A stretch of DNA of 64,000 bases from Frigoribacterium sp. PhB160. GTDB lineage: Bacteria > Actinomycetota > Actinomycetes > Actinomycetales > Microbacteriaceae. The notes under the pieces are model-generated. The model made no database searches. It was not told the DNA's origin and saw nothing but the letters and a program-made list of their open reading frames with translations. Shown here in pieces: positions 3,660-62,688 of this stretch. Every line of letters begins with the position of its first letter. Position 1 is the stretch's first letter. The stretch is from NCBI RefSeq assembly GCF_003751785.1, contig NZ_RKIE01000001.1, positions 783,564 through 847,563 of the forward strand, in the 5' to 3' direction. The position numbers and the translations under genes were made by a program.

Positions 3660-3706
3660 CCGGGGGAGGCGCGGGGCCGGTGGTCGTAGGGAGGGCCGGG
3701 AGGATG

Positions 3707-3712
3707 TATATT
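3707..3712 (+). promoter_or_regulatory. Possible -10 box (TATATT) for tRNA-Tyr
   Basis: TATATT at 3707-3712 is the only AT-rich hexamer in the 97-bp gap before tRNA-Tyr and lies about 45 nt from the mature 5' end. I see no convincing -35 at the right distance. Confidence 0.35.
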
Positions 3713-3756
3713 TGTCTGGCGCCTCCGGTCGATGAACATCTGGGCCGGGCGTGCAT

Positions 3757-3838
3757 GGCAAGTTACCCAAGCGGCCAAAGGGATCTGACTGTAAATCAGC
3801 CGGCGTAGCCTCCGGGGGTTCGAATCCCTCACTTGCCA
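3757..3838 (+). tRNA. tRNA-Tyr (anticodon GTA)
   Basis: The acceptor arms GGCAAGT (3757-3763) and ACTTGCC (3831-3837) pair fully and A3838 is the discriminator. The anticodon GTA is at 3791-3793 in a CTGTAAA loop, and the D arm CCCAAGCGGCCAAAGGG and T arm GGGGGTTCGAATCCC are clear. A long variable arm places it in class II, as expected for bacterial tRNA-Tyr. No CCA is encoded. The outermost pair of the anticodon stem appears to be a T/C mismatch (TCTGA against TCAGC). Confidence 0.95.
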
Positions 3839-3874
3839 CCCTCGTGACGACGTGCAGAGCAGCGCCCGTCACGC

Positions 3875-3904
3875 CGAACGGACCCGATCACTCGGGTCCG
3901 TTCG
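3875..3904 (+). terminator. Hairpin terminator after tRNA-Tyr
   Basis: A perfect 13-bp stem, CGAACGGACCCGA against TCGGGTCCGTTCG, has the four-base loop TCAC and is followed by GTCGTCC rather than a T-run. It lies about 37 bp after tRNA-Tyr. Confidence 0.75.
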
Positions 3905-3958
3905 TCGTCCGGGCGACGACGTCGATCCGGCCTGCGCCCCGTGCCGCCGGGAGGCCCC

Positions 3959-4783: not shown

Positions 4784-4916
4784 GAAGGGCTGCTGACGGC
4801 CGACTTCCTCGCACGGGGAGCGCCCTGGCGGGTCATCGCCGCGACCTCTGGTACACGGATGTCTCATGTCTCAGCCCGGCTGGCACCCGAACGCGGGTAG
4901 CCATCTGGTGAACGAG

Positions 4917-5032: not shown

Positions 5033-6085
5033 GTGTCGAACCCCCAGCACTTCGCCGAGCCCGACGGCGACGGAAACCCGTCGAGTCGTGACGCCGAGGT
5101 CCTGACGGAACGCCCCGAGGCTCCCGTCTACCTGACCCGCCGCGAAGCCCGCGAGGCCGAGCGTGCCGCCGAGGCCGCCGCCTCCGCACGCCCGCGTCGC
5201 ACTGCCGCCGGAGCGCCCGCCTCGGCGAGGCCTGCCGCCGCGGCCCCTCGCCGCACCAGCTCGGCCGCTCCGCGCACCGCCTCCACGACGCGTCCGAGCG
5301 CACCCGCCGGGCGCGTCGCCTCCGTCGGCTCCGCACGCCGCGCCTCCGGTGCCGCTGCGCCCGCCGCGACCAGCGCCTCCGTCCCGTCGGCCTTCCGCCG
5401 CACGAGCAAGCGCGTGACGGTCGTCGGCGCGATGCTCTTCGCCGGGGCGATGCTCGTCGCGACGAGCGTGCCGGCCAACGCGTTCCTCGTCGACACCGCG
5501 TCCCCGGGCACCGCTCAGGGCTCGCCGATGTCGACGCAGACCTTCGTCGCGGGCGAGGCCACGGACGACGTCGCCGACCGCGACGGCTACTCGGTCACCG
5601 AGATGAAGGTCGCCACGCAGTACTCGTCGACCAGCACGAGCACCTTCAGCAACGACCTCGAGGGCACGGTCCAGTGGCCCTTCCAGACCGGCGTGCCGAT
5701 CAGCAGCGGCTTCGGCGCGCGCCAGGTCAGCAACTGCAGCTTCTGCTCGACCTTCCACGAGGGCCTCGACTTCGTGCCCGGCGCGGGCTCGCCGATCCAG
5801 GCGATCGCCGACGGCACCGTCAGCGTCGTCAGCGGCCCCGGCGGCGCCTTCGGCAACCACGTCGAGATCGAGCACGTCATCAACGGCCAGAAGGTCACGT
5901 CGACCTACTCGCACATGCAGACCGGCTCGGTCACGGTCTCGGTGGGCGACCCCGTCACCGTCGGCACCGTCATCGGCAAGGTCGGCTCGACCGGCAACAG
6001 CACCGGTGCGCACCTCCACTTCGAGATCCACCTCAGCGGCGTGCCCGTCGACCCGTACCCCTGGCTGCAGGCCAACACCAACTAG
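5033..6085 (+). CDS. M23-family peptidoglycan endopeptidase with basic, disordered N-terminus
   Basis: The 350-residue protein begins with about 120 residues rich in Ala, Arg, Ser and Pro, then one hydrophobic segment (VVGAMLFAGAMLVATSVPA, near residue 130) that should anchor or export it. The C-terminal half is an M23 LytM domain with GFGAR, HEGLDFVPG and the paired motif HLHFEIH. These supply the zinc ligands (HxxxD and HxH) for cutting peptide cross-bridges in the wall. The start is GTG at 5033. The long cytoplasmic tail may hold interaction sites. The gene stands alone downstream of a CRP-like palindrome and ends at a strong bidirectional hairpin. Confidence 0.87.
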   Translation: MSNPQHFAEPDGDGNPSSRDAEVLTERPEAPVYLTRREAREAERAAEAAASARPRRTAAGAPASARPAAAAPRRTSSAAPRTASTTRPSAPAGRVASVGSARRASGAAAPAATSASVPSAFRRTSKRVTVVGAMLFAGAMLVATSVPANAFLVDTASPGTAQGSPMSTQTFVAGEATDDVADRDGYSVTEMKVATQYSSTSTSTFSNDLEGTVQWPFQTGVPISSGFGARQVSNCSFCSTFHEGLDFVPGAGSPIQAIADGTVSVVSGPGGAFGNHVEIEHVINGQKVTSTYSHMQTGSVTVSVGDPVTVGTVIGKVGSTGNSTGAHLHFEIHLSGVPVDPYPWLQANTN

Positions 6086-6172: not shown

Positions 6173-6185
6173 TCGGACCGGGTGC

Positions 6186-7964: not shown

Positions 7965-8543
7965 TCAGGCCTCCCGGGCGGGGCCCAGGGCGACCACCTC
8001 GCGGGCGTCGGAGTCCCACCGCCGGGCCGCCGCGGCGACGTCGGACGACGAGGAGGCGCGGGTCGGCGGGGAGGCGACGCGCGCCTCCTCGTCGGCCAGC
8101 ACCTCGAGGGCCCTGGCGAGCGTCGTCGCCGTCAGGCGGTGCGCCAGCGTCACGTGCGGGGACCAGGCGCCCGGGGCCGTGTGGGGCACGTCGCCCTCGC
8201 CCGAGGCGAGCTCGTGGACCCGCCGGTGGAGGTCGAGGAGCGCCGCCGTCGGCACGACGGACCGCGCGAGCACCCAGCCGCCGCGCCCTCCCCTGCCGGG
8301 GCGCCCGAAGACCAGCGGCGCGCCCGTTGCCAAGGGCAGGGGGAGCAGCTCGCCGAGGAGCGCCGCCAGGGCCTCGTCGTGCCGCGGGTCGACGACGGGC
8401 CGGGCGAGGAGCGTCACGTGCGGCGCATTGCTCGCGCCGGCGTGGTCGGCGAGCGAGGGCAGGTCGGCGGCTGCGAGCGCCGCCCACTCGTCGCGGACGC
8501 GCTGGTCGGCTGCCTCGTCGAGCAGCAGTTCGATGCTGTGCAC
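7965..8543 (-). CDS. 2'-5' RNA ligase / 2H phosphoesterase family protein
   Basis: The 192-residue product has the two HxT motifs of the 2H phosphoesterase fold, APHVTLLARP in the first third and SPHVTLAHR in the middle. It may open 2',3'-cyclic phosphates or handle 2'-5' linkages in RNA, but no member in this group has a settled role that can be read from sequence. The C-terminal third is unusual at DNA level: a 15-bp perfect inverted repeat built from two copies of the dispersed GGAGGCGCG word (8046-8094) encodes DEEARVASPPTRASSSS. The start is GTG at 8543, six bases after CAGGAT. Confidence 0.8.
   Translation of the reverse strand: MHSIELLLDEAADQRVRDEWAALAAADLPSLADHAGASNAPHVTLLARPVVDPRHDEALAALLGELLPLPLATGAPLVFGRPGRGGRGGWVLARSVVPTAALLDLHRRVHELASGEGDVPHTAPGAWSPHVTLAHRLTATTLARALEVLADEEARVASPPTRASSSSDVAAAARRWDSDAREVVALGPAREA
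8046..8094. repeat. Inverted pair of the dispersed word inside a coding region
   Basis: CGACGAGGAGGCGCG at 8046-8060 is the exact reverse complement of CGCGCCTCCTCGTCG at 8080-8094, with 19 bases between. Both arms hold the core GGAGGCGCG. The pair is read through in frame by the RNA ligase-family gene. Confidence 0.8.
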
Positions 8544-8983: not shown

Positions 8984-10159
8984 ATGCCCGTCAGCATCCG
9001 AAGCATCGGGACGGCCGTGCCCCCGACGGCCATCCGCCAGCCCGACGTCCGCGACCTCTTCCGCAGCCAGCCGGGGCTCGGACGACTCGCCCCGCGCCTC
9101 ATCGGCGCGGTCTTCGACGCGTCCGGCATCGAGACGAGGCACACCGTCGTCGACGAGCTCGGGGTGGCCGGCGGCGACGTCCCCGTGCCCCGAGGCCCCG
9201 AGGACGGCGTGCCCGACGGCCCGGTCTTCGTCGACCAGGACGGCCGCGTGCTCGCCCCGACCACCGGCGTCCGCAACGCCGAGTACGTCGCGCGCAGCCC
9301 CGACCTCTTCGGCCGCGCCGCCGAGGCGGCCCTGGCCGGGGCCGCCGGCGTCGAGGCCTCCGACGTCACCCACGTCGTGACCGTCTCGTGCACGGGCTTC
9401 TTCGCGCCCGGGCCCGACTACCTGCTCGTCCGCCGGCTCGGGCTCGCCCCGTCGACGCGGCGGCTGCACATCGGCTTCATGGGCTGCTACGGCGCGTTCC
9501 CCGCCCTCCGCGCGGCGCGCGACACCTGCCTCGCCGAGCCCGACGCGGTCGTGCTCGTCGTCTGCGCCGAGCTCTGCACCCTGCACCTGCGGTCGTCCGA
9601 CGACCCCGACGCGATCGTCGCCTCCTCCGTCTTCGCCGACGGCGCCGCGGCGGCGGTCGTGTCGGCGCGCCCGGCGCCCGCCGGATCGACCGTGCTCGAC
9701 CTCGACGTGCTCGAGTCGGTGCTCACGCCGGTCGGCGAGGACGACATGGCCTGGAGCATCGGCGACCAGGGCTTCGACATGGTGCTGAGCAGCTACGTGC
9801 CGCACATCGTCGAGGAGAACATCGACGACGCCCTCGTGCCGCTCCTCGCCGCGGCGGGCTGCTCGATCGCCGACGTCGAGCGATGGGCCGTGCACCCGGG
9901 CGGCCGCAGCATCCTCGACCGGGTCGAGAAGCGCCTCGGCCTCAGCGCCGAGCAGCTCGCCCCGTCCCGCGACGTCCTCCGCCGCCACGGCAACATGTCG
10001 AGCGCGACGGTCCTCTTCATCCTGCAGCAGCACCTCGAGGCCGCCGGAGGCGCGGCGCCGGTCGCCCTCCCGCCCACCACGTCGAGGGTGTGCGCCATGG
10101 CCTTCGGGCCCGGGCTGACCGTCGAGACGGCCCTGCTCACCCGACGGACGACGTCGTGA
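8984..10159 (+). CDS. Type III polyketide synthase (alkylresorcinol/alkylpyrone synthase-like)
   Basis: This 391-residue chalcone-synthase-fold enzyme should extend a starter acyl-CoA with malonyl-type units and cyclise the product. The catalytic triad is visible: Cys136 in VTVSCTGFFAPG, His304 in WAVHPGGRSILD and Asn337 in HGNMSSATVLF. The family AFGPGLTVE loop is near residue 375. Start ATG 8984 lies five bases after a TACCAT box. Its stop overlaps the GTG of a methyltransferase, which in turn overlaps an FAD monooxygenase. This order matches the srsA-srsB-srsC phenolic lipid operon of Streptomyces griseus, so an alkyl-resorcinol or alkyl-pyrone is the best guess for the product; chain length cannot be read. 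Confidence 0.88.
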   Translation: MPVSIRSIGTAVPPTAIRQPDVRDLFRSQPGLGRLAPRLIGAVFDASGIETRHTVVDELGVAGGDVPVPRGPEDGVPDGPVFVDQDGRVLAPTTGVRNAEYVARSPDLFGRAAEAALAGAAGVEASDVTHVVTVSCTGFFAPGPDYLLVRRLGLAPSTRRLHIGFMGCYGAFPALRAARDTCLAEPDAVVLVVCAELCTLHLRSSDDPDAIVASSVFADGAAAAVVSARPAPAGSTVLDLDVLESVLTPVGEDDMAWSIGDQGFDMVLSSYVPHIVEENIDDALVPLLAAAGCSIADVERWAVHPGGRSILDRVEKRLGLSAEQLAPSRDVLRRHGNMSSATVLFILQQHLEAAGGAAPVALPPTTSRVCAMAFGPGLTVETALLTRRTTS

Positions 10160-10926: not shown

Positions 10927-12119
10927 TCACCCACGACGTGGTCGTCGTCGGCGGCGGCCCGGTGGGGGTCTACGCCGCCGCCCTGCTCGCGCGGCGCGGC
11001 CACGACGTCGTCGTCTGGGAGGCGCGGACCGGCACCCCCGTGCTCTCCCGCGCGATCGGGGTCCACCCGCCCTCGCTCGACGCCCTCCAGCTCGTCGAGG
11101 CCGCCGACCCCCTCCTCGCCCGCGCCGTCCGCATCCGCCGCGGCCTGGCGCGGAGCGGAGACCGTGCCCTCGGCGTCGTCGACTTCGGCCGGCTGCCCGG
11201 CCCCTGGCCGTTCGTCGCCGCGGTGCCGCAGGACGCGACCGAGGCCGTGCTGAGGGGCCGCCTCGACGAGCTCGCGCCCGGTTCCCTCCGCACGGGCACG
11301 ACCCTCAGCGGGCTCGACGCCGACGACGAGCGCGTGGTCCTCCGGGGCGAGGGCCCCGACGGCCCGCACGAGGTCGCCGCCCGCTACGTCGTCGCCGCCG
11401 ACGGCGCGCGCAGCACGGTCCGCGACCTGCTCGGCGTCGCGGCCCCCGAGCGCCTCTACCGCGACCGCTTCGTCATGGGCGACTTCGCCGACGGCACGGG
11501 CCACGGCGACGACGCCGTCGTCGACGTCGGACGCGACGGCGTCGTCGAGTCGTTCCCGCTGCCCGGGGGAGTGCGCCGCTTCGTCGTCTCGGTCGGCGAC
11601 GCGCGTCCCGGCCGGGAGGGCCCCGGGGAGGCGCGGGGCGGGTCGACGACGCCCCTCACCGCCGACGACCTGGCCGCCCTCGTGCACCGGCGCACGGGCG
11701 CGGACGTCGACCCGTCGACCTCCACCATGCTGAGCGAGTTCGCGCCGCGGCGCCGGACGGCCGAGCGGACCGTGGTCGGGCGCGCGCTGCTCATCGGCGA
11801 CGCCGCCCACGAGATCAGCCCGATCGGCGGCCAGGGCATGAACCTCGGCTGGCTCGACGCGGTGGCGTGGGAGCCCGTGCTGACCCGCGCCCTCCGCTCG
11901 GCGGGCGGTCGTCGTCACGACGCGGCGGCCTTCACGGCCACTGAGTCGGCGCGGCGACGCGCCGCAGGCCGGGCCGGCCGTCAGGCCGAGATCAACATGG
12001 CCCTGGGACGACCGACCGGCCTCGGGGGCCACCTGGCGCGTCAGGCCGCGCTCGCGACGGCGCTGCGGTCGCCTGCGTCGCGGCTGCTCGCCGCCACCTA
12101 CGCCATGCGCTTCGCCTGA
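10923..12119 (+). CDS. FAD-dependent monooxygenase (SrsC-like hydroxylase)
   Basis: This 398-residue flavoprotein belongs to the aromatic hydroxylase group. It has the FAD motif VVVVGGGPVGVYAAALLARR at the N-terminus, the DG motif YVVAADGARSTVRDLLG in the middle and GDAAHEISPIGGQGMNLGW near residue 295. These are the three fingerprints of PHBH-type monooxygenases that hydroxylate phenolic rings with NAD(P)H and oxygen. GTG 10923 overlaps the methyltransferase stop as GTGA. With the upstream genes it should convert a phenolic lipid to a hydroxylated or quinone form. A copy of the dispersed word lies inside the gene at 11627-11635. Confidence 0.85.
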   Translation: MITHDVVVVGGGPVGVYAAALLARRGHDVVVWEARTGTPVLSRAIGVHPPSLDALQLVEAADPLLARAVRIRRGLARSGDRALGVVDFGRLPGPWPFVAAVPQDATEAVLRGRLDELAPGSLRTGTTLSGLDADDERVVLRGEGPDGPHEVAARYVVAADGARSTVRDLLGVAAPERLYRDRFVMGDFADGTGHGDDAVVDVGRDGVVESFPLPGGVRRFVVSVGDARPGREGPGEARGGSTTPLTADDLAALVHRRTGADVDPSTSTMLSEFAPRRRTAERTVVGRALLIGDAAHEISPIGGQGMNLGWLDAVAWEPVLTRALRSAGGRRHDAAAFTATESARRRAAGRAGRQAEINMALGRPTGLGGHLARQAALATALRSPASRLLAATYAMRFA

Positions 12120-14575: not shown

Positions 14576-15663
14576 CCTCGTTCGCCGACCTCACCACGAT
14601 GCGCGTCGGCGGAGAGCCGGCCCGCCTCGTCGAGCCCGAGACGACCGACGAGCTGCTCGAGGCCGTCCGCGCCGCATGGGCCGACGGCGACGAGTGGTTC
14701 GTCCTGGGCGGCGGGTCGAACACGCTGGCCTCGGACGAGCCGTACGACGGGACCGTGGTGCGCGTCGCGACCCGTGGGGTCGAGCGGCTCGACGACGTCG
14801 ACGGGCGCGTGCGCCTCCGCGTGGCCGCGGGCGAGCCGTGGGAGGACCTCGTCGCGCTGACGGTGGCCGAGGGCTGGTCGGGCCTCGAGGCCCTGAGCGG
14901 CATCCCCGGCTCGACGGGCGCCTCGCCCGTCCAGAACATCGGTGCCTACGGGCAGGAGGTCGCCTCGACCCTCGCCTCCGTCGACTTCCTCGACGACGAG
15001 AGCGGCGAGTTCGTCCGCCTCCCCGCCTCCTCGCTCGGTCTCGGCTACCGCACGAGCGTCTTCAAGCAGGGGCGTCGAGGCGTCGTGACCGCCGTCGAGT
15101 TCTCGCTCCGCGACGACGGCGGCGTCAGCGAGCAGGTCTCCTACCCGCAGCTCGCCTCGGCGCTCGGGGTCATGGTGGGCGCGCGCGTCCCGGTGGCCGA
15201 CGTGCGCGAGCGCGTGCTCGAGCTCCGCGCCTCCAAGGGGATGGTGCTCGACGACGGCGACGCCGACACGACCTCGTGCGGCTCGTTCTTCACGAACCCC
15301 GTCGTGCCGCGGAGGGTCGCGAGCGAGCTGCCGACCGACGCCCCGCGCTGGCCCACCGAGCCCGAGGCGGAGGACCGCGTCGTGCCGCTCGGCGAGGAGC
15401 CCGCCGCCCCGCCGCCCCCGTCGGCCGGCACCGTCAAGCTGAGCGCGGCCTGGCTCATCGAGCACGCCGGCGTCGCCAGGGGCTTCCGGCTGCCCGGCTC
15501 GGGCGCGGCGGTGTCGTCGAAGCACACGCTCGCGCTGACGAACCGCGGCTCGGCCACGGCCGAGGACGTCGTCGAGCTCGCCCGGTTCGTCCAGCAGCGC
15601 GTCGCGTCCGAGTTCGGCGTCGTCCTGCACCCCGAGCCCGTGCTGCTCGGCCTCTCCCTCTAG
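14572..15663 (+). CDS. murB: UDP-N-acetylenolpyruvoylglucosamine reductase
   Basis: This 363-residue FAD enzyme reduces UDP-GlcNAc-enolpyruvate to UDP-MurNAc with NADPH, an early cytoplasmic step of peptidoglycan synthesis. Visible family features are LTTMRVGGEPARLVEP at the start, FVLGGGSNTLASDE for FAD, SGIPGSTGASPVQNIGAYGQE in the middle and SCGSFFTNP with the catalytic Ser. The last conserved block is AAWLIEHAG, with a terminal Glu in the EFGVVLHPEPVLLG tail. A Pro/Ala-rich insert lies near residue 270. The GTG at 14572 overlaps the hadB stop as GTGA. Confidence 0.95.
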   Translation: MTSFADLTTMRVGGEPARLVEPETTDELLEAVRAAWADGDEWFVLGGGSNTLASDEPYDGTVVRVATRGVERLDDVDGRVRLRVAAGEPWEDLVALTVAEGWSGLEALSGIPGSTGASPVQNIGAYGQEVASTLASVDFLDDESGEFVRLPASSLGLGYRTSVFKQGRRGVVTAVEFSLRDDGGVSEQVSYPQLASALGVMVGARVPVADVRERVLELRASKGMVLDDGDADTTSCGSFFTNPVVPRRVASELPTDAPRWPTEPEAEDRVVPLGEEPAAPPPPSAGTVKLSAAWLIEHAGVARGFRLPGSGAAVSSKHTLALTNRGSATAEDVVELARFVQQRVASEFGVVLHPEPVLLGLSL

Positions 15664-20248: not shown

Positions 20249-20262
20249 CGAGGAGGCGCGGG
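20249..20262 (+). repeat. Full-length copy of the dispersed word
   Basis: Exact CGAGGAGGCGCGGG. Here its GAGGAGG part sits five bases before the GTG of a GNAT gene and can serve as the ribosome binding site. Confidence 0.75.
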
Positions 20263-20840
20263 TGCGGCACGATGGGGAGGTGACCGTCATCGCCCGCCCC
20301 GCCACCGCCTCCGACGCCTCCCGCCTCGCCGAGGTGGCGGCCCTCACGTTCCCGCTCGCGTGCCCGCCCGGGACCCAGCTCGTCGACATCGCCCGCTTCG
20401 TCACGACCCTGCTGAGCGAGGGCGCCTTCGAGGGCTACCTGGCCGACCCGGCCCGCCGAGTCCTGCTCGTCGTCGACGACCACGACGGCGACGCGGGTGC
20501 CGAGGGTGCGGAGACCACCCTCGGCTACGCGATGGTCGTCGGCGGCGAGCCCGCCGACGCCGCGGTCGCCGCCGTCGTGCCGACCCGGCCGACGGTGGAG
20601 CTGAGCAAGTTCTACCTCGTGCCCGACCAGCACGGCAGCGGCGCGGCGGGGGTGCTCATGGGGGCCGTGCTCGACGCTGCCCGCTCGACCCGCGCCTCCT
20701 CGGCGTGGCTCGGGGTCAACCAGGAGAACGCCCGGGCCCGCGCGTTCTACGCCAAGCACGGGTTCGAGCGGGTCGGCGTGAAGCAGTTCGTCGTCGGCGC
20801 CGAGACGCACGACGACTTCGTGCTGGCCCGGACCCTCTGA
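20262..20840 (+). CDS. GNAT-family N-acetyltransferase
   Basis: The 192-residue product has a GNAT fold. VELSKFYLVPDQHGSGAAGVLM carries the acetyl-CoA pyrophosphate loop (Q/RxxGxG/A, here QHGSGA), and NQENARARAFYAKHGFERVG is the usual motif B helix and strand. It probably acetylates a small amine or antibiotic, but the substrate is not predictable. GTG 20262 is chosen because GAGGAGG lies five bases upstream; an internal GTG at 20280 has worse spacing. A reverse copy of the dispersed word at 20689-20702 encodes RASS within the domain. Confidence 0.82.
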   Translation: MRHDGEVTVIARPATASDASRLAEVAALTFPLACPPGTQLVDIARFVTTLLSEGAFEGYLADPARRVLLVVDDHDGDAGAEGAETTLGYAMVVGGEPADAAVAAVVPTRPTVELSKFYLVPDQHGSGAAGVLMGAVLDAARSTRASSAWLGVNQENARARAFYAKHGFERVGVKQFVVGAETHDDFVLARTL

Positions 20841-21813: not shown

Positions 21814-21948
21814 CGGGCTCCCTGCCGCTCGGGGGAGGCGCGCGACACGGAGCCTCCCTGCTCACCTCATCGAACAGGGGCGATGTCACCGCCGTGTTTC
21901 CGCGGCGTCACCGGCGGGCAAACTCTGTCGCGCCCGGCGCCCGGACGC

Positions 21949-23402: not shown

Positions 23403-23482
23403 GCCTCCATGCTCTCACCGGACGGGCGCCGGGTGCGACACCGCGCCTCCTCGTGTCGCGTCGGGAGGCCGGGCGGGCCGGG

Positions 23483-32980: not shown

Positions 32981-32994
32981 CGAGGAGGCGCGGG
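32981..32994 (+). repeat. Full-length copy of the dispersed word
   Basis: Exact CGAGGAGGCGCGGG, between the permease gene and the preferred start of the ATPase gene. Confidence 0.7.
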
Positions 32995-37090: not shown

Positions 37091-37131
37091 GACGGAGGAG
37101 GCGCGACTTGCGCGGTCGCGCCTCCTCCGTC
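37091..37131. terminator. Perfect 17-bp hairpin after the kinase gene, made of two dispersed-word copies
   Basis: GACGGAGGAGGCGCGAC pairs perfectly with GTCGCGCCTCCTCCGTC around the seven-base loop TTGCGCG. Both arms hold the core GGAGGCGCG. It begins two bases after the kinase stop. The loop also supplies the -35 hexamer for the ribosomal protein promoter. Confidence 0.85.
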
Positions 37132-43570: not shown

Positions 43571-43591
43571 GCCGCGCCTCCGTCGACGGGG

Positions 43592-48038: not shown

Positions 48039-49865
48039 CTAGAGGGACGCCTCCACGGCGGTGCTCACGGCCACGGGCCCGCCGAGGACGACGATCCCGT
48101 CGGGGTCGAGCGCGTCGAGGCGCTGACGCACCACGGGCGGGACGGCGCCGGGCTGGGTGAGGAGGACGGGCGCGCGCAGGCGACCCGCGGCCGACGCGCC
48201 GGCGAGGGCGTCGGGGATCGACGACCCCGTCGCGAGGAACGCCGTGTCGGCGCCCTTGCCGTAGCCGTACTCGGCGATGCGTGCCGACGTCGCGAACCGG
48301 TTGACGCCGGAGAGGCGCGTGACCGGGGCGACCGTCGCGAGCTGGGTCGCCACGGCCGCGCTGACGGCCGCCTCGCCGCCGAGGACGACGATGCGCGCCG
48401 GCCGCAGGCGGGCCAGCTCGGAGGCGACGCTCGGCGGCACGCGGTCGGGGCGCGTCAGCAGCATGGGGCCGGCGTCCGCGCCGCTCGCGAGGGCGGCTCC
48501 CGACAGGGCGTCGGGGAAGTTCGTGCCGGTGGCGACGTAGGCGGTGCCGCCCCGACCGGCGGGGAAGGTCGCCGCCGACACGACCGCGGACGTCGTGAAC
48601 CGGTCGCTGCCCGAGAGGCGCGTGACCTTCTTCCCCGAGCCCGTCGCGAAGGCGGCCAGCTGCTTCTCCACCGCCGTGCTGACGGCGGCGGGGCCGCCGA
48701 GGACGACGATGCGGGCGGGCTTCAGCAGTCGCAGCTCGGCCTGGGTCGGCGCCGGGAGGCGGTTGCCGAGGGTGAGCAGGACGGGAGCCTTGCCGTAGCC
48801 GGCCGCCGCGCCTCCGGAGAGGGCGTCGGGGTAGCTCGCGCGGGTGGCGACGTAGACGAGCGGCACCGAGCCGCCCGAGCGGGCGGGGCCGTCGACGACG
48901 ACCGGCGGGGTGAAGGTCGAGGCGGCGATCGAGGCCGCCGTCGCGAACGCGTCGGAGCCGGCCACGCGACCGACCGCGGTCGCGGCGGGGCGGGTCAGGG
49001 CGTCGAGCTGCGTGGCGGTGCCGTTGAAGACGTCCTGGTTGCCGGGGAAGGGCGAGTTCGCGGTCTGCGACCACTGCCAGAAGGTCCAGGTCGCGAACGA
49101 CGACTTGGGGGGAGTAGCGACAGGTGCATTGGTCGAGGAGGGAGCGTAGGAGGCGACCCAGAGGCGGTCCTTCGGGAAAGCGGTGCTGTTGCCGGTGCAT
49201 GCCGACCAGAAGTTCTGGTTCGTGTAGATGATCGGCTGAACGCCCTCTTGCGCCACCACGGTGCCGACCCAGGACTGGATCCAGAGCACCATCTCGGGCT
49301 TCGACAGGCCCCAGCACTGGTCCCCGCCCTGCTTGTCCCAGTTTTCCTCCACCACGGTCTCCATGTCGAGGACAGGCGGAATCATGCCCGGCTGCCACGT
49401 CGGCGTGGAGTCGAGGAAGAACTGCGCCTGCGGGGCCCCGGCCGAGTAGAAGGGCGTGGCGAAATGGTAGAAGCCCGTCACCAGGCCGGCGGCCCGTGCG
49501 CCCGCTGCATGGGACGCCCGGCGGCTGTCGGAGAGCCCCGTGTAGTTCCCGTTCTTGTACGTGCCCGGCACACCCTCTGACGCCTTGATAAGAGCGAACC
49601 TGGCTCCGTCCTTCTTGGCTTGGACGAAATTCGGGTTCTTCTGGAACTCGCTGACATCGAAACCGGGCAACCCGGCAGGTCGAGCTGATCCCGCGTCGGT
49701 CGATGCCAGCGCCTGGCGTGAGGACGACCCGAGGTCGTGGCTCTCGATCGCGCCGGCGTCCGTCGCCGTGCCGGCCGCGGACGCGGGCGTCACGACGCCG
49801 ACGACGAGGCCGGCGGCGAGGAGCAGGGCCGCGGGCAGGGCGCGGCGACGTGTCGATGTGTGCAA
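48039..49865 (-). CDS. Secreted GH25 lysozyme with three cell-wall-binding type 2 repeats
   Basis: The 608-residue protein has a signal peptide ending near AAGTA (residue 31) and a GH25 muramidase domain, about residues 67-290, with GFDVSEFQKNPNF, KASEGV and PVLDMETVVE, which carry the catalytic Asp and Glu. Three CWB2 repeats follow, each with LSG(S/V)xRFxT and ARIVVLGGxAAVS-type motifs (about 300-410, 410-510 and 510-608), which bind wall polymers. The start is TTG 49865; an alternative is not obvious. The lysozyme domain is visibly less G+C-rich with rarer codons than its own repeats, which suggests that the domain was acquired. Confidence 0.88.
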   Translation of the reverse strand: MHTSTRRRALPAALLLAAGLVVGVVTPASAAGTATDAGAIESHDLGSSSRQALASTDAGSARPAGLPGFDVSEFQKNPNFVQAKKDGARFALIKASEGVPGTYKNGNYTGLSDSRRASHAAGARAAGLVTGFYHFATPFYSAGAPQAQFFLDSTPTWQPGMIPPVLDMETVVEENWDKQGGDQCWGLSKPEMVLWIQSWVGTVVAQEGVQPIIYTNQNFWSACTGNSTAFPKDRLWVASYAPSSTNAPVATPPKSSFATWTFWQWSQTANSPFPGNQDVFNGTATQLDALTRPAATAVGRVAGSDAFATAASIAASTFTPPVVVDGPARSGGSVPLVYVATRASYPDALSGGAAAGYGKAPVLLTLGNRLPAPTQAELRLLKPARIVVLGGPAAVSTAVEKQLAAFATGSGKKVTRLSGSDRFTTSAVVSAATFPAGRGGTAYVATGTNFPDALSGAALASGADAGPMLLTRPDRVPPSVASELARLRPARIVVLGGEAAVSAAVATQLATVAPVTRLSGVNRFATSARIAEYGYGKGADTAFLATGSSIPDALAGASAAGRLRAPVLLTQPGAVPPVVRQRLDALDPDGIVVLGGPVAVSTAVEASL

Positions 49866-51374: not shown

Positions 51375-51422
51375 CGCGCCTCCGGCGGTCGAGGGGCGGT
51401 CGAGGGGTCGGCCGGTCGAATG

Positions 51423-51481: not shown

Positions 51482-52498
51482 ATGCCTGAGGTCGACAAGG
51501 TGCGCGCCCCCAACATCCGCGACGTGGCCGCCCTCGCCGGCGTCTCGTACCAGACCGTCTCGCGCGTGCTGAACGACAGCCCGAGCATCCGCCCCGCCAC
51601 GCGGCAGCGCGTGCTCGACGTCATCGACGAGATCGGGTACCGGCCGAACCAGGCGGCCCGGGCGCTCGTCACGAGCCGGTCGAAGGCGATCGGCGTGCTG
51701 ACCCTGCAGAACGTGCACTTCGGGCCGCAGACCATGGTCAACGCGATCGAGGTCGAGGCGCGCGCCGCCGGCTACCGGCTCAGCATCGCCAGCACCACGC
51801 GCGCCGACGACGACGTGCGGGCGAGCGTCGACCTGCTGACGAACCAGGCGGTGGAGGCGATCATCGTCATCGCCCCCCAGCGCAAGTTCTTCGACGTGCT
51901 CGACGAGCTCGAGCTCTCGGTGCCGATCGTCGCCCTCGACTCCACCGCGCGCAGCACCGCGCACAGCCTGTCCGTCGACCAGCACGCGGGGGCGCGTCTC
52001 GCGACGCGGCACCTCATCGACCTCGGCCACCGGCACATCGTGCACGTGGCCGGCCCGCAGGACTGGATCGAGGCCGACGAGCGGATGCAGGGCTTCCTCT
52101 ACGAGATGGGGGAGGCCGAGCTGTCGGTGGAACCGCCGATCCTCGGCGACCTGACCGCCGACTTCGGCTACCTCGCCGGCAAGGAGCTGCTGCGGCGGCG
52201 CGACTTCACGGCCGTCTTCTCGGCGAACGACCTGATGGCGGTCGGCCTGCTGCACGCCTTCCGCGAGGCGGACGTCGACGTGCCCCGCGAGGTGAGCGTC
52301 GTCGGCTTCGACGACTCGCCGACGGCGGCGCACCTCTGGCCGCCGCTCACGACCGTCCGCCAGGACTTCGAGCTGATCGGGAGGCGCGCGGTCGAGCTGG
52401 TCGTCGCCGAGATCGCCGGGCGCACGGTCGCCGACCGCACCCTGCTGCCGGCCGAGCTGATCGTCCGCGGGTCGACCGACCGGCCCTGGTTCCTCTGA
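51482..52498 (+). CDS. LacI-family transcriptional repressor
   Basis: The 338-residue regulator has the HTH NIRDVAALAGVSYQTVSRVL with the hinge helix IGYRPNQAARAL, then a periplasmic-binding-like effector domain with AVFSANDLMAVGLLHA and VSVVGFDDSPTAA. It should bind a monosaccharide and release DNA. Matching TGTGNACGGTCACA sites lie before it and before the transporter operon that follows on the same strand, so both are likely targets. ATG 51482 has GGAG upstream; an upstream in-frame ATG at 51443 falls inside the operator and is rejected. Confidence 0.93.
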   Translation: MPEVDKVRAPNIRDVAALAGVSYQTVSRVLNDSPSIRPATRQRVLDVIDEIGYRPNQAARALVTSRSKAIGVLTLQNVHFGPQTMVNAIEVEARAAGYRLSIASTTRADDDVRASVDLLTNQAVEAIIVIAPQRKFFDVLDELELSVPIVALDSTARSTAHSLSVDQHAGARLATRHLIDLGHRHIVHVAGPQDWIEADERMQGFLYEMGEAELSVEPPILGDLTADFGYLAGKELLRRRDFTAVFSANDLMAVGLLHAFREADVDVPREVSVVGFDDSPTAAHLWPPLTTVRQDFELIGRRAVELVVAEIAGRTVADRTLLPAELIVRGSTDRPWFL

Positions 52499-52889: not shown

Positions 52890-54429
52890 CGCCCCGATCA
52901 TCCTCGAGATGCGGTCCATCACCAAGGAGTTCCCCGGGGTCAAGGCCCTCGACCACGTGTCGATGGAGGTCCGCGCCGGCGAGGTCCACGCCATCTGCGG
53001 CGAGAACGGCGCCGGCAAGTCGACGCTGATGAAGGTGCTGTCGGGCGTCTACCCGTACGGCAGCTACACGGGCGAGATCGTCTACCAGGGCGACGAGATG
53101 CGCTTCCGCGACATCCGCTCCAGCGAGTCGCAGGGCATCGTGATCATCCACCAGGAGCTCGCGCTGATCCCCGAGCTGTCGATCACCGAGAACATCTTCC
53201 TCGGCAACGAGCCGACGAAGTTCGGCGCCATCGACTGGCGCGCCGCCAAGTCGCGCGCCGTCGACCTGCTCGCCCGCGTCGGCCTCGCGGACGACCCCGA
53301 CACCGCCGTCAAGAACCTCGGCGTCGGCAAGCAGCAGCTCGTCGAGATCGCGAAGGCGCTGAACAAGAACGTCAAGCTGCTCATCCTCGACGAGCCCACG
53401 GCGGCCCTCAACGAGGCCGACTCGCAGCACCTGCTCGACCTCATCCGCGGGCTCAAGGGCCGCGGCATCGCGTCGATCATGATCAGCCACAAGCTCAACG
53501 AGATCGAGGCCATCGCCGACTCGATCACGATCATCCGCGACGGCAAGACCATCGAGACGCTCGACGTCGTCGCCGACGGCGTCAACGAGGACCGCATCAT
53601 CCGCGGCATGGTCGGCCGCAACCTCGCGAGCCGCTTCCCCGACCGCACGCCGAAGATCGGCGAGGTCTTCTTCGAGGTCAAGGACTGGTGGGTGCGCCAC
53701 CCGCAGACCGCCGAGCGGTTCGTCTGCAAGGGATCGTCCATCAGCGTCCGCCGCGGCGAGATCGTCGGCCTCGCCGGGCTCATGGGCGCCGGCCGCACCG
53801 AGCTCGCGATGAGCATCTTCGGCCGCTCGTACGGCCAGTTCGTCTCCGGCGAGATCGTCAAGGACGGCGAGACGATCCAGCTCAAGAACGTCTCCGACGC
53901 CATCGACCACGGCCTCGCCTACGTCTCGGAGGACCGCAAGGTGCTCGGGCTGAACCTGCTCGACGACATCAAGCGCTCGACCGTCGCGGCCAAGCTCACG
54001 AAGATCTCCCGCGCCTCCGTCGTCAACACGTACGAGGAGCACTCGATCGCCGAGTCGTACCGCAAGAGCCTGCGGGTCAAGACGCCGACGGTCGACGAGG
54101 GGGTCGCCAAGCTCTCCGGCGGCAACCAGCAGAAGGTCGTCCTGGCGAAGTGGATGTTCACCGACCCCGACCTGCTCATCCTCGACGAGCCGACCCGTGG
54201 CATCGACGTGGGCGCCAAGTTCGAGATCTACAACATCATCAACCAGCTCGCGGCCCAGGGGAAAGGCGTGATCGTCATCTCGTCCGAGCTCCCCGAGCTG
54301 CTGGGGCTCTCCGATCGCATCTACACGATCTTCGAGGGCTCCGTCACCAACGAGATCGACGCGTCGGAGGCCGACGCCGAGACGCTCATGAGGACCATGA
54401 CGTCGAAGAAGAAGGAGCACGCCGCATGA
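52879..54429 (+). CDS. mmsA: Multiple monosaccharide ABC transporter ATPase (MmsA/GguA-like)
   Basis: The 516-residue protein has two ATPase halves. The first has [16 protein letters not shown] and [10 protein letters not shown]; the second has [32 protein letters not shown] and [13 protein letters not shown]. This tandem form is typical of RbsA/XylG/MmsA ATPases that energise sugar uptake. The GTG at 52879 is chosen because GGAGG lies eight bases before it; GTG 52870 falls too close. Its stop overlaps the permease ATG as ATGA. Confidence 0.92.
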
Positions 54430-55808: not shown

Positions 55809-55913
55809 ACCCGCTCCTGCGCGCCCGTCCACCGACGGCCGGACGCGCCTCCCCAGGGCTCCCTCACCGGCAGCCCGACCATCGCACCACCCCTACGAGA
55901 AAGTAGACACAGC

Positions 55914-57187: not shown

Positions 57188-57778
57188 GTGCGAGGGGCAG
57201 ACGAGGAGGCGCGGGCCGGCCGCCCGCAGCCGGTCACCGTCGAGCTCCTGCTCTCGTCCCCGCGCCAGCGCTACGTCGGTCGGCCCGGCGACGGCCCCGC
57301 GTCGCCGCGCGGCCCCGAGCTGCACGAGAGCGTCGAGCTGCGCGCCGGCCTCGGCGTCGTCGGCGACCGGTACTTCGCTAAGCCCGCGCACCGCGACGCC
57401 TCCGTCACGCTGTTCGCGGCGGAGCAGCTCGACGCGGTCGCCGCCGAGCTGGGCGCTCCCGGTCTCGACGTCGCGGCCACCCGGCGCAACGTCGTGCTGC
57501 GCGGCGTCGACGTCGACGCCCTGCCGCGCGGCGCGGTCGTGTCGCTCGACAGCGGCGACGGCCCGGTCGAGCTGCTCGTCGGGCGACCCGCGAACCCCTG
57601 CGCGTGGATGGACGTCGTGCTCGCGCCCGGGGCGTTCCGTGGGCTGCGGGGCCGCGGGGGAGTGCGCTGCCGTCCGCTCACCGACGGCGTGCTGCGCCTC
57701 GGCCCGGCCGTGCTGACCGTGCTCGACGCCCGGGGCGACGAGCCGACGCCACCCGGCCCGTCACGGCCGCGCGACTAG
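57188..57778 (+). CDS. MOSC-domain protein
   Basis: The 196-residue protein has the MOSC beta-barrel with GVVGDRYF, NVVLRGVDVDAL and NPCAWMDVVLAPGAFRGL, which includes the conserved Cys for molybdenum cofactor sulfur or metal-ligand handling. Such stand-alone proteins are thought to take part in molybdenum cofactor delivery or in detoxification of N-hydroxylated bases; the substrate is unknown. A full-length dispersed word (57202-57215) encodes DEEAR in the first ten residues, outside the domain. GTG 57188 is six bases after TAGCGT. Confidence 0.83.
   Translation: MRGADEEARAGRPQPVTVELLLSSPRQRYVGRPGDGPASPRGPELHESVELRAGLGVVGDRYFAKPAHRDASVTLFAAEQLDAVAAELGAPGLDVAATRRNVVLRGVDVDALPRGAVVSLDSGDGPVELLVGRPANPCAWMDVVLAPGAFRGLRGRGGVRCRPLTDGVLRLGPAVLTVLDARGDEPTPPGPSRPRD
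57202..57215 (+). repeat. Full-length copy of the dispersed word at a gene start
   Basis: Exact CGAGGAGGCGCGGG read in frame as DEEAR just after the MOSC start codon. Confidence 0.75.
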
Positions 57779-58491: not shown

Positions 58492-58675
58492 GCGGACTGT
58501 CGGGGCGGCGGCCCCGCGGGTTAGCATCGACGTGGCGGCGTCCGCACCACGGCCCCGACCGCCGCCTCCCTCCCCCCACCTCCACCACCTCCGGCACCCG
58601 GTCGTGCGTCTCGTGATCGAACCGATTCGATCCGAGTCGCCCCGCGCCTCCGGAGGGCGTCCTCGAAGGCTGACC

Positions 58676-59905: not shown

Positions 59906-60001
59906 CCCCCGCCGGAGGCGCGGCGCGGCCGACCAGCACCGCCGCCGGCCCCGGACCGCCGCCGCTCCGCCGGCACCGGCGCCGACCCCCTCCCCGCCGG
60001 G

Positions 60002-60007
60002 TACGGT
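60002..60007 (+). promoter_or_regulatory. Leaderless-type -10 box (TACGGT) of the PAP2 gene
   Basis: TACGGT is six bases before the ATG at 60014. Confidence 0.5.
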
Positions 60008-60013
60008 CTGGTG

Positions 60014-60754
60014 ATGACCTCGACGCCGCACCGCCCGCCCGCCGGCCCCAAGCCGCCGACCCCGGCGGAGGAGCGCGTCGCCCGACGGGTGCAGCGCCGC
60101 TGGTGGGTGTTCAGCGCCCTCGGCGCGATCGGCGTGGTGCTGCTGCTCGGCGTCGTCATCACGGCCCGCGCCGGCAGCATCGCCGTCGACGAGGACTTCA
60201 TGGGCGAGCTCGTCGAGCACCGCAGCCCGTTCTGGGAGGCGCCCGCCCTCGTCTTCAACGTCGTGGGAGCGGGCCTGATCGGCGTGTTCGTCGTGCCGCT
60301 CGGCGTCGCCCTGCTGCTCGTGCTGCGACGTCGGCCCTGGGCGGCCGGCTACTGGATCGCCGCCTGCGCGGCGAGCGCGGGCGTCGTGCAGGTCGTCAAG
60401 CACCTGTTCGGCCGGGCGCGGCCGGCGGAGATCCTCGTCGTCAGCGACTACGGCTCGTTCCCCTCCGGCCACACGGCGAACGCGGCCACGATGGCCGTCG
60501 TGCTCGGGGTCGTCCTCCGGCGCGCGTGGATCTGGGCGGCGGGGGTCGCCTACACGATCCTCATGCTGCTGAGCCGCACCTACCTCGGGGCCCACTGGCT
60601 CACCGACACCGTCGGGGGCCTGCTGATCGGGGCGGGCGTCGCGGTCGTGCTCTGGGCCCCGGTCGCCCACCGCCTCCTCGACGAGCAGGAACGGGCACGG
60701 GGCCGCGGCTGGCTCTGGCAGCGCCGCGACGCCGTGCCTAGGCTGACCGCATGA
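60014..60754 (+). CDS. PAP2-family membrane phosphatase
   Basis: The 246-residue protein has a short cytoplasmic start and five or six helices, with the three PAP2 motifs KHLFGRARP, FPSGHTANAA and SRTYLGAHWLTD. Such enzymes remove phosphate from lipid or isoprenoid diphosphates such as undecaprenyl pyrophosphate. ATG 60014 follows the -10 by six bases; GTG 60011 is an alternative. Its stop overlaps the next ATG as ATGA. Confidence 0.9.
   Translation: MTSTPHRPPAGPKPPTPAEERVARRVQRRWWVFSALGAIGVVLLLGVVITARAGSIAVDEDFMGELVEHRSPFWEAPALVFNVVGAGLIGVFVVPLGVALLLVLRRRPWAAGYWIAACAASAGVVQVVKHLFGRARPAEILVVSDYGSFPSGHTANAATMAVVLGVVLRRAWIWAAGVAYTILMLLSRTYLGAHWLTDTVGGLLIGAGVAVVLWAPVAHRLLDEQERARGRGWLWQRRDAVPRLTA
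60739..60744 (+). promoter_or_regulatory. Leaderless-type -10 box (TAGGCT) of the HerA-like gene
   Basis: TAGGCT lies inside the last codons of the PAP2 gene, six bases before the ATG at 60751, so the second gene can also be made from its own transcript. Confidence 0.5.
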
Positions 60755-62688
60755 CCGACGCGCTCGAGCAGGCCAGGGCGGAGGCCGCCGCGGCGGTCGC
60801 CGCCGCCGAGAAGGCGAAGCAGGACGCGGAGGCGGCGCTCGCCCGGGCGCAGCAGCTCGCCGACGCCGCCGAGGCGGCCGAGCGGGAGGCGGCGAGCACC
60901 GCCGAGCAGGAGGCGACGAGCCGTGCCGAGCACGAGGCGAGCGCTCCGGCCGAGCCGCCCCGCGCCTCCTCGGGGCCCCTGTCGGGGGAGGCCGTCGAGG
61001 CCGTCCGTGCGGGCTACGCCTTCGCCGGGCCCGCGCTCGAGATCGGCGCGCTCGTCAACGGCGAGGCGCTCGCGGACGTGCCGGTGCGGATCCCGCTCGC
61101 GATGCTCAACCGCCACGGCCTGGTCGCGGGTGCGACCGGCACGGGCAAGACGAAGACCCTGCAGGTGCTCGCCGAACAGCTCTCCGCCGCCGGGGTGCCC
61201 GTGTTCGCCGCCGACGTCAAGGGCGACCTCTCGGGCATCGCGACCGCGGGCGAGCCCTCCGAGAAACTGCTCGCCCGCACGCGCGGCATCGGCCAGGACT
61301 GGACCCCCGCCGCCGCCCCGACCGAGTACTTCGCGCTCGGCGGCGTGGGCACCGGCGTGCCCGTCCGCGCCACGGTGAGCGGCTTCGGCTCGCTGCTGCT
61401 CAGCAAGGTGCTCGGCCTCAACGACACGCAGGAGTCGAGCCTCGGCCTGGTCTTCCACTACGCCGAGCGGGCGGGCCTGCCACTGCTCGACCTCGCCGAC
61501 CTGCGGAGCGTGCTGACCTGGCTGACGAGCGACGACGGCAAGGCCGAGCTCGACGACCTGGGCGGGCTGAGCAAGGCGACCGTCGGCGTCATCCTCCGCG
61601 AGCTGATCACGTTCGCCGACCAGGGGGCCGACCAGTTCTTCGGCGAGCCCGAGATCGACACCGCCGTCTTCCTCCGTCAGGCCGCGGACGGCCGGGGCGT
61701 CGTCAGCCTGCTCGAGGTGCCGGGCGTGCAGGACCGCCCGGCCCTCTTCTCGACCTTCCTGATGTGGCTGCTGGCCGACCTCTACAACGACCTGCCCGAG
61801 GTCGGCGACCTCGCGGCGCCGAAGCTCGTCTTCTTCTTCGACGAGGCGCACCTGCTCTTCACCGACGCGTCGAAGGAGTTCCTCGCGCAGATCACCCAGA
61901 CGGTGCGCCTGATCCGCTCGAAGGGCGTCGGCATCGTCTTCGTCACGCAGACCCCGAAGGACGTCCCGTCCGCCGTGCTCGCCCAGCTCGGCTCGCGGGT
62001 GCAGCACCAGCTGCGCGCCTTCACGCCCGACGACGCCAAGGCGCTGCGGGCGACCGTCTCGACCTACCCGACGAGCGAGTACGACCTCGGTGCCGTGCTC
62101 ACGACCCTCGCCACCGGGGAGGCGGTCGTGACGGTCATGGACGAGCGCGGCGCCCCCAGCCCGGTCGCCTGGACGCGCCTCCGGGCCCCCCGGGGCTCGA
62201 TGTCGCCGACGCCGGCCGACGTCATGCAGGCGACCGTCGACGCCTCGCCGCTGCAGGCCGTCTACGGGGCCGCGGTCGACCGCGACTCGGCCCGCGAGAT
62301 CCTCGCCCGCAAGCTCGAGGCCGCGGCCCTGGCGCAGCGCGAGCTGACCGAGGCGACGGCCCGGCAGGCGACCGTCGACGCCCAGCTGAAGGAGGCGGCG
62401 GCCCGGGAGCGCGCGGACGCCGCGGCCCAGAAGGGGGCCGAGAAGGAACGGAAGGCCGCGCAGGCCGAGTACGAGCGTCAGCAGAGGGACTTCGAGCGGG
62501 CGGAGAAGGCGGCCGCCTCGGCGCGGGCGCGGCGCTCGGGGTCGACCCGCGCCTCCTCGTCGCGGTCGGGCGGCGCGAGCGGCACGGGTGCCGGCGGGGT
62601 GATCGGCGACGTGCTCGGCTCGAGCGCCGGCAAGGCGATCGTGCGCGAGGTCGTCAAGGGCATCTTCGGGACGCTGCGACGCCGGTAG
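60751..62688 (+). CDS. HerA-like/DUF853 P-loop ATPase with coiled-coil flanks
   Basis: The 645-residue protein has an Ala/Glu coiled-coil first 65 residues, then a HerA/FtsK-like ATPase with GATGTGKTKTLQVL (Walker A), FAADVKGDLSGIA, LVFFFDEAHLLF (Walker B) and FVTQTPKDVPSAVLAQLGSR. A second Ala/Arg/Glu coiled coil spans about 510-590 and a Gly/Ser-rich linker precedes a conserved end. It is a DNA-translocase-like protein of the YjgR type, whose role is not known. The ends of the coiled coils are encoded by dispersed-word copies at 60959 and 62546. Confidence 0.87.
   Translation: MTDALEQARAEAAAAVAAAEKAKQDAEAALARAQQLADAAEAAEREAASTAEQEATSRAEHEASAPAEPPRASSGPLSGEAVEAVRAGYAFAGPALEIGALVNGEALADVPVRIPLAMLNRHGLVAGATGTGKTKTLQVLAEQLSAAGVPVFAADVKGDLSGIATAGEPSEKLLARTRGIGQDWTPAAAPTEYFALGGVGTGVPVRATVSGFGSLLLSKVLGLNDTQESSLGLVFHYAERAGLPLLDLADLRSVLTWLTSDDGKAELDDLGGLSKATVGVILRELITFADQGADQFFGEPEIDTAVFLRQAADGRGVVSLLEVPGVQDRPALFSTFLMWLLADLYNDLPEVGDLAAPKLVFFFDEAHLLFTDASKEFLAQITQTVRLIRSKGVGIVFVTQTPKDVPSAVLAQLGSRVQHQLRAFTPDDAKALRATVSTYPTSEYDLGAVLTTLATGEAVVTVMDERGAPSPVAWTRLRAPRGSMSPTPADVMQATVDASPLQAVYGAAVDRDSAREILARKLEAAALAQRELTEATARQATVDAQLKEAAARERADAAAQKGAEKERKAAQAEYERQQRDFERAEKAAASARARRSGSTRASSSRSGGASGTGAGGVIGDVLGSSAGKAIVREVVKGIFGTLRRR

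Follow-up and report, generated by a model that had tools for sequence, protein, structure and literature searches.

A genome-wide nine-base word of Frigoribacterium, apparently maintained and possibly a DNA uptake signal

Copies of the word in the window

The DNA studied here, called the window throughout, is a stretch of 64,000 nucleotides from Frigoribacterium sp. PhB160 (contig NZ_RKIE01000001.1, positions 783,564 to 847,563); the source genome (G000) comprises 3.34 Mb in four contigs, and the bacterium is leaf-associated. Scattered over the window are 41 copies of the 9-mer GGAGGCGCG, referred to as the core, 19 of them forward and 22 reverse, together with nine exact copies of a longer form, the 14-mer CGAGGAGGCGCGGG. 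A sequence-only reading of this stretch had listed 36 core copies by eye. All 36 coordinates were exact, but five copies had been missed (11018 on the plus strand; 5339, 15226, 22439 and 42171 on the reverse strand); its nine 14-mers were all correct. Its estimates were borne out as well: the content of guanine plus cytosine (G+C), guessed at about 72%, is 72.8% by base counts, base composition predicts 5.4 core copies where about five had been supposed, and the expectation for the 14-mer, described as far below one, lies between 0.01 and 0.07. Markov models of orders 3–4 gave 4.3–4.6 expected copies for the 9-mer and 0.03–0.04 for the 14-mer, and GGAGGCGCG had the highest z value among all window 9-mers with at least five copies. 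According to our own simple gene caller, 28 of the 41 copies lie in genes and 13 in gaps or at gene edges, in line with the earlier description of copies in both settings and both orientations. The core density of 0.64 per kb is close to the genome mean (2043 in 3.338 Mb). The 14-mer is threefold denser in the window than in the genome (9 vs 2.7 expected, P = 0.002), and the selection of this window thus worked partly in favour of the long form.

The leftmost cores, at 3665–3673 (+) and 5339–5347 (−), are intergenic. A genic 14-mer at 8049–8062 (+) forms a head-to-head (-> <-) pair with the core at 8080–8088 (−), at a spacing of 28 bp, and further genic cores follow at 10046–10054 (+), 11018–11026 (+), 11627–11635 (+) and 15226–15234 (−). 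Exact 14-mers are located at 20249–20262 (+, intergenic) and 20689–20702 (−, genic), and cores at 21834–21842 (+, intergenic), 22439–22447 (−, genic), 23320–23328 (+, genic), 23442–23450 (−, intergenic) and 30545–30553 (+, genic). For many of the subsequent copies, fractions give the congeners that carry the exact core. The genic core at 31198–31206 (−) recurs in 0/4 aligning congeners, the core of the genic 14-mer at 31760–31773 (+) in 4/4, that of the 14-mer at 32981–32994 (+), close to a called gene start, in 2/5 with diverging flanks, and the genic core at 34123–34131 (−) in 3/6. At 35139–35147 (−), inside a conserved gene, the word is found in 0/10 congeners and is perhaps a chance copy; the copy at 35540–35548 (+), at a gene edge, likewise has no counterpart at the aligned place (0/10), and 5/10 congeners share the one at 36339–36347 (+) in a sensor histidine kinase gene.

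Upstream of rplJ, the cores at 37097–37105 (+) and 37117–37125 (−) form the first and second arms of a hairpin pair, kept in 6/7 (decayed in F. endophyticum) and 7/8 aligning congeners, respectively. An amino-acid transporter gene holds one copy at its 3′ end (38431–38439, +; 5/7 aligning congeners) and another 48 bp away (38479–38487, −; 0/10). A conserved ABC transporter gene contains the copy at 42171–42179 (−; 0/10), and the copy at 43573–43581 (−; 0/6 aligning) is intergenic. In a DUF305 gene, the 14-mer at 44267–44280 (+; core in 4/10 congeners) pairs at 12 bp with the second arm at 44282–44290 (−; 1/10). The genic core at 48807–48815 (−) is kept in the sole aligning congener, the intergenic one at 51375–51383 (−) in 3/9 with diverging flanks, and the genic ones at 52380–52388 (+) and 54010–54018 (−) in 0/6 each. 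Intergenic cores lie at 55844–55852 (−), 58643–58651 (−) and 59914–59922 (+), and a 14-mer at 57202–57215 (+) stands near the called 5′ end of a MOSC-domain gene. A single HerA-type ATPase gene harbours the 14-mer at 60959–60972 (−), the core at 62174–62182 (−) and, near its 3′ end, the 14-mer at 62546–62559 (−). As a separate observation, positions 9017–10159 encode a type III polyketide synthase of the chalcone/stilbene synthase family.

Extent in the genome, genus and family

Handles are used where genomes have to be told apart: G014 is F. sp. CFBP 13712, G046, G119 and genus g32 are Curtobacterium, G311 is C. pusillum AA3 and G308 is Frondihabitans sucicola. The source genome holds 2043 copies of the 9-mer (1004 and 1039 on the two strands) vs 256 of the reversed word used as a control, and three Frigoribacterium genomes gave 2043, 2167 and 1457 copies vs 256, 143 and 192. 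The 14-mer occurs 142 times in the source genome with zero control matches. Comparison with close relatives had been proposed with the sequence-only reading; all 16 genomes of the genus carry the long form, with 122–382 copies each and 0–1 for the control. By contrast, the 292 genomes of other genera (84 genera) in a family set of 299, which includes seven Frigoribacterium, hold 0–9 each.

In the same family set, the 10-mer GGAGGCGCGG reached 842–1421 copies in the seven Frigoribacterium (reversed word, 103–148) and was also in excess in all six Curtobacterium drawn (216–688 vs 61–118). Beyond these, only G069, out of five species drawn from a third genus, g55, clearly exceeded its control (399 vs 142; 108–133 vs 98–190 in the other four), and a few family genomes with fewer than 20 copies also stood above control, e.g., 17 vs 5. 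A set of 396 genomes of the order, with the source genome as its only Frigoribacterium and no Curtobacterium row, was searched for WGGAGGCGCGG: the source genome had 536 copies vs 45 reversed and no other genome more than 61, some with small counts being up to a few-fold above control (e.g., 34 vs 17 or 16 vs 5).

The proposal to map orientation against the replication origin was followed along the contig axis. The 79 14-mers of the 1.9-Mb contig showed no cumulative orientation bias relative to the contig, rather than to a mapped origin (range test, P = 0.58). Across the 16 genomes of the genus the two strands carry nearly equal numbers of 14-mers, the most unequal case being 153 vs 195.

Excess over coding models and in gaps

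We analysed 464 kb of the source genome with 266 copies and 400 kb of G014 with 245 copies; unless stated otherwise, paired values below refer to these two samples in this order. Genic copies numbered 173 and 149, vs 41.2 ± 5.5 and 31.7 ± 5.5 after shuffling of synonymous codons. Other codon-pair-biased 8-mers reach z values of 8–10 under such a shuffle, like GGAGGCGC (100-kb samples). Since the plain shuffle was thus too weak on its own, a codon-pair model was added. It predicted 23.7 ± 5.1 and 16.3 ± 2.9 genic copies, far fewer than the 173 and 149 seen, and 0.2 and 0.1 genic 14-mers vs 19 and 20. Its predictions were good for a strongly codon-pair-biased word (103 seen vs 87.8 predicted; 66 vs 68.4) and for the reversed word (25 vs 30.9; 18 vs 15.6). 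A count matching a codon-pair-preserving shuffle, or a lack of enrichment in gaps, had been named as an outcome that would speak against the word; the observed numbers lie well above that model, and the density is 1.22 per kb in gaps vs 0.44 in genes of the source genome (2.8-fold) and 1.57 vs 0.44 in G014 (3.6-fold). Gap copies amounted to 89 vs 5.0 expected and 96 vs 5.2 under a Markov model. Their density was highest between convergent genes (3.9 and 4.9 per kb), followed by tandem (1.9 and 2.2) and divergent (1.2 and 1.3) arrangements.

Within genes, both strands are used (76 sense and 97 antisense copies; 62 and 87 in G014), and the first tenth of the gene is favoured (52/322 genic copies, P = 4e-4, with starts taken from our own caller). 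The statement that coding copies read DEEAR or RASS was a fair one, as the EAR frame (42) and the RAS frame (61) account for 103/173 genic copies of the source genome; in the congener they make up 63/149.

One might have suspected that base composition, codon usage or codon-pair preferences produce the excess as an artefact, given that G+C is high, that the word encodes common charged and small residues, and that its number correlates with G+C over 25 stretches (rho = 0.60). This explanation is refuted by the codon-pair result (23.7 vs 173) and by the gaps (5.0 vs 89): the model fails for the word and yet predicts both the biased and the reversed word well, and most relatives stand at control level.

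Preferred context and inverted pairs

The core is followed by G at a frequency of 0.71 in both genomes, and C occupies offset 12 from the core start at 0.64 and 0.62. The base before the core is A in 0.71 of the G014 copies and 0.33 of those in the source genome, and the genus itself therefore varies. Exact 14-mers numbered 25 and 39 and one-mismatch forms 46 and 67, compared with 0 exact and 0–5 one-mismatch matches for six shuffled words and the reversed word in the 464 kb. As one-mismatch forms outnumber exact ones, the 14-mer is a preferred context and not a fixed unit. This context is CGA-core-GG, and C is preferred less markedly two bases further along.

The core differs from its own reverse complement, i.e., it is not a palindrome. 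Inverted pairs, as claimed in the sequence-only reading, were found: among neighbours at most 150 bp apart, the head-to-head arrangement accounted for 24/36 and 13/28, with a spacing peak at 28 bp. Exact pairs within 60 bp comprised 40/266 and 22/245 copies. Of the close pairs, 11/20 and 10/11 were in gaps, and of these 21, convergent genes flanked 13 and divergent genes one. The inner bases of close pairs are variable, often still complementary. With a looser partner test (at most two mismatches at 9–34 bp), 92/266 and 70/245 copies had a partner (chance, 580/4000).

Maintenance among congeners

Pairwise alignments among eleven orthologous loci were used to follow the word. It was kept exactly in 459 of 1055 cases (0.435), compared with 4360 of 25079 (0.174) for 9-mers of the same composition; 375 word cases and 7611 control cases were unaligned and hence left out. 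Single-mismatch states were rarer at word sites (0.130 vs 0.266). Synonymous codons within the word were retained in 1230 of 1609 cases (0.764) vs 0.605 expected from the same codons elsewhere, counted over ordered species pairs that are not independent, the effect being strongest for the rare codon GGA (0.58 vs 0.18) and for TCC (0.95 vs 0.45); retention inside the word was below that elsewhere for CTC (0.45 vs 0.74) and CCT (4/26 vs 0.28). The word often persists amid changing flanks. Eight window copies (31198, 35139, 35540, 38479, 42171, 43573, 52380 and 54010) were exact in no aligning congener, so that the 41 probably include copies that arose by chance or recently. Insertion of whole copies was sought among 98 gaps at word sites, of which 50 spanned 1–4 bases and 22 spanned 9–13, with no single word-length peak (gap lengths uncontrolled). 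Sequence data by themselves could hardly establish more firmly that the word is real, extends through the genus and is maintained.

A second form in Curtobacterium

In three Curtobacterium strains the same core follows CGGCCT (CGGCCT-core-G), with T at position −1 in 0.63–0.76 of the copies. By our own tally, CTGGAGGCGCGG occurs 10–479 times in 66 Curtobacterium species (reversed word, 4–25), with more than 100 copies in 22 species and 30 or fewer in 25. Genic cores with T at −1 were above the codon shuffle (11 vs 5.0 ± 1.7), and palindromic hairpin units were found between genes. Upstream of rplJ, the word sits at the same junction in 7/8 Frigoribacterium loci, the window included, and in 20/26 Curtobacterium loci, with flanks and spacing that differ between the genera. 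As a side observation, other long hairpins with seemingly recurrent sequences were seen by eye upstream of rplJ in L048, L056, L058, L111 and L115. Two Curtobacterium genomes, G176 and G268, combine an excess of the core 10-mer (220 vs 61 and 456 vs 84) with few copies of the CTGG form (30 and 48), perhaps a further dialect.

A one-gene tree placed the window with F. endophyticum and Frondihabitans as the sister of Frigoribacterium, with Curtobacterium outside both. For the 627-residue ABC transporter of the window (Pfam search), the closest loci among the best 80 of 253 were Frigoribacterium, followed by Frondihabitans, Curtobacterium and others; the record of the window itself may be missing from this set.

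The word on presumably foreign DNA

C. pusillum AA3 (G311) carries a second replicon of 567 kb. Fourteen stretches of it (280 kb) contained zero TGGAGGCGCG and seven cores (4.7 expected), while ten stretches of the chromosome (200 kb) contained 23 TGGAGGCGCG and 31 cores (5.7 expected); the difference in TGGAGGCGCG is significant (P = 2e-9). In the source genome, two stretches of 66.5% G+C held 4 and 1 copies per 20 kb, compared with 6–21 in 23 other 20-kb stretches. Only their G+C and poor gene calls point to a foreign origin, few elements were examined, and the correlation of word number with G+C mentioned above means that composition contributes to this scarcity.

A possible uptake word

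We consider it a nearly even call that the word is a maintained genome-wide recognition word of Frigoribacterium that would mark self-DNA and be read in natural transformation. The wider proposition, in which Frigoribacterium and Curtobacterium would share an uptake word with genus dialects, independent of those of Neisseriaceae and Pasteurellaceae and with a receptor other than their type IV pilus, falls somewhat short of even. As judged from sequence comparison, most of the anatomical traits tested match uptake words, including apparent reuse in terminators and a changed form in the neighbouring genus. With the DNA uptake sequences (DUS) of Neisseriaceae, the word has in common hundreds to thousands of short non-palindromic copies in permissive positions and inverted pairs at putative terminators, and its Curtobacterium form may correspond to the DUS dialects with a conserved inner core (PMC3630211, PMC12616744); reuse of uptake words in terminators is reported in PMC13020248 and PMC3630211. 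It differs from DUS in that Frigoribacterium is a Gram-positive actinobacterium, no ComP-like receptor was found and the apparent sister genus is without the word. The uptake signal sequences (USS) of Pasteurellaceae resemble it in a 9-bp core with weaker flanks, presence on both strands and a bias towards gene ends, the last described by van Passel (PMC2346458); the Frigoribacterium core is a different one, in another phylum.

Concerning the import machinery, ComEC was matched in 16/16 genomes of the genus; it also matched in 10/14 control genomes, so that its presence does not discriminate. PilM was matched in 13/16, the source genome included. Beside it in the source genome we read by eye a putative prepilin peptidase, putative PilN- and PilO-like frames and three putative prepilin-like frames. 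When the three prepilin-like frames and the PilN-like frame were searched with NCBIfam, one prepilin-like frame matched weakly and below the cut-off (PilV, ComGE). As a route to the pilus locus, rpsL was sought in the G014 sample and not found. Two Microbacteriaceae are naturally transformable, with no word requirement described (PMC11577799). Transformation in the actinobacterium Micrococcus relies on Flp pili (PMC4322843), so that an actinobacterium can do without type IV pili for this purpose (no search for Flp genes was made).

As a mechanism, we envisage a DNA-binding protein on the cell surface, possibly a minor pilin or part of a Flp/Tad pilus, that would recognise the word in DNA from within the genus; the bound DNA would be passed to ComEA/ComEC, and RecA would recombine it. 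Through such biased uptake, copies would persist and multiply at sites where they are nearly harmless, i.e., in gaps, at gene ends and at tolerant coding sites, and gene-end terminators may have adopted the word as stems.

Several observations weigh against an uptake function. PilM had no match in G002, G007 and G014 (80, 10 and 40 contigs; about 99% complete), which are the genomes with the highest 14-mer counts (348, 347 and 382). As PilM is unmatched where 14-mers peak, type IV pilus uptake is not maintaining the word there, unless assembly gaps are to blame. No other observation speaks as strongly against the simplest model of uptake. The claim that the word behaves like an uptake signal sequence thus stood for most of its anatomy and met resistance in the machinery of these three genomes. 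PilM was also rejected as a correlate of the word, being unmatched at the 14-mer peak and present in 8/8 Curtobacterium, word-rich and word-poor alike. No receptor for the word was found, and no genome-wide search for a reader was made. PMC12616744 gives two Gram-negative families, Neisseriaceae and Pasteurellaceae, as the sole groups with known uptake words. Among the matches listed in literature searches, none described transformation of Frigoribacterium, and none was pertinent to uptake words of Actinobacteria or Microbacteriaceae, to Curtobacterium repeats or to Chi in Actinobacteria. At word sites, indels were somewhat commoner than at control sites (0.151 vs 0.117). The dialect pattern is uneven as well: Curtobacterium shares the core in a patchy manner, and Frondihabitans, the sister in the one-gene tree, is without an excess in three genomes (9-mer 201, 129 and 176 vs reversed 219, 155 and 182). 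Genic cores of Curtobacterium were at chance level (20 vs 17.2 ± 3.4 in the codon shuffle) and 32 of its 43 gap copies had a hairpin partner, which brings this form nearer to a terminator-like element. Eight conserved junctions had data for both genera, and among them only that of rplJ bears the word in most loci of both; at two others it was present in 8/11 Frigoribacterium loci each vs 0/26 and 1/10 Curtobacterium loci.

Alternative explanations

With uptake at about an even chance, most of the remaining probability is divided among a Chi-like word, a nucleoid-type word and a terminator element. A Chi-like word, at which a helicase-nuclease of the AdnAB/AddAB kind would pause and load RecA, would be favoured chromosome-wide and absent from foreign replicons. 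The density of about one per 1.6 kb genome-wide, the maintenance in genes and gaps and the absence from the sampled second replicon of C. pusillum AA3 would suit it, and like Chi the word is genome-wide and borne by the chromosome. A one-sided signal, however, does not ask for an approximately threefold higher density in gaps, a peak between convergent genes and partial hairpin pairing, and the lack of orientation bias along the 1.9-Mb contig and the nearly even strands of the 16 genomes also argue against it. RecBCD-Chi in particular is unlikely, as RecC (PF04257) matched in 0/30 genomes with control matches in E. coli (AdnAB/AddAB were not searched). We regard a Chi-like role as unlikely, though of some weight. 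The suggestion of a Chi- or nucleoid-type word consequently fitted less well than that of an uptake word. Slightly less credible still is a binding site for an abundant chromosome-organising or regulatory protein peculiar to the two genera, with incidental hairpins. A sequence-specific core spread over the sampled genome on both strands, in a context altered in neighbouring Curtobacterium, is what such a protein might leave. On the other hand, we know of no such protein with about 2000 non-palindromic 9-bp sites lacking a strand pattern. An element acting at the RNA level, with terminator stems plus stray single copies, appears improbable to a further degree. It would account for the 28-bp spacing peak, for the prevalence of convergent gaps among the 21 gap-borne close pairs, for the maximal density between convergent genes, for the paired gap copies of Curtobacterium and for the excess in the looser partner test, but exact close pairs hold only 40/266 and 22/245 copies, and genic copies are 7–9 times the codon-pair model in sense and antisense alike.

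Two kinds of known repeats were also compared. A methylation target retained because of restriction or repair, like the highly iterated palindrome HIP1 of cyanobacteria, would explain an overrepresentation in genes and gaps, and HIP1 is likewise a very frequent genome word. HIP1, which is methyltransferase-linked, is a palindrome, however (PMC4390886), unlike the word of 9–14 bp with its hairpin pairs; a HIP-like word of the same family, centred on GGATCC in G049, looks different. We hold this explanation to be very unlikely. Repetitive extragenic palindromes (REP, including bacterial interspersed mosaic elements, BIME) spread by a REP-associated tyrosine (Y1) transposase (RAYT) would resemble the palindromic intergenic units of Curtobacterium and are less probable again. 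Their RAYT-borne form was rejected: PF01797 matched in 0/27 genomes and in five control genomes including E. coli, and most of the roughly 2000 Frigoribacterium copies are genic (173/266 in the sample) rather than confined to gaps. Nor did the 98 gaps at word sites show the length peak that mobile units might leave.

The phylum of Frigoribacterium lacks a Gram-negative outer membrane. If the word does serve uptake, it would be the first case known of a Gram-positive bacterium taking up DNA in a sequence-specific way, and a third independent origin would uncouple this function from the step at the outer membrane and from the pilins known to date. It would also offer a plant-surface organism for asking why uptake words evolve. 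If it does not, an unexplained word that a whole genus maintains in about 2000 copies poses a directly testable problem.

Other overrepresented words in the family

Further words came to light in other genera. In G049 (genus g35; L139–L143), the palindromic HIP-like word centred on GGATCC occurs at about 195 sites per 100 kb (390 on both strands), and CGGATCCG is about elevenfold above the codon shuffle in genes. In Frondihabitans (L134–L138, L055 and L111), GCAGGATC was found 32 times in genes vs 5–6 after codon shuffling, gene calling being poor there. Three 21-kb Frondihabitans loci contained 17, 8 and 4 copies of it and nine loci of other genera 0–3, with no hairpin pairing. In G069 (genus g55; L163–L168), called genes held 60 copies of GGGAGGCG vs 17–18 after codon shuffling. 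Finally, G031 (L144–L148) exhibited a tandem-like repeat based on GGGCGTGGGCGT, with 16 copies per 100 kb.

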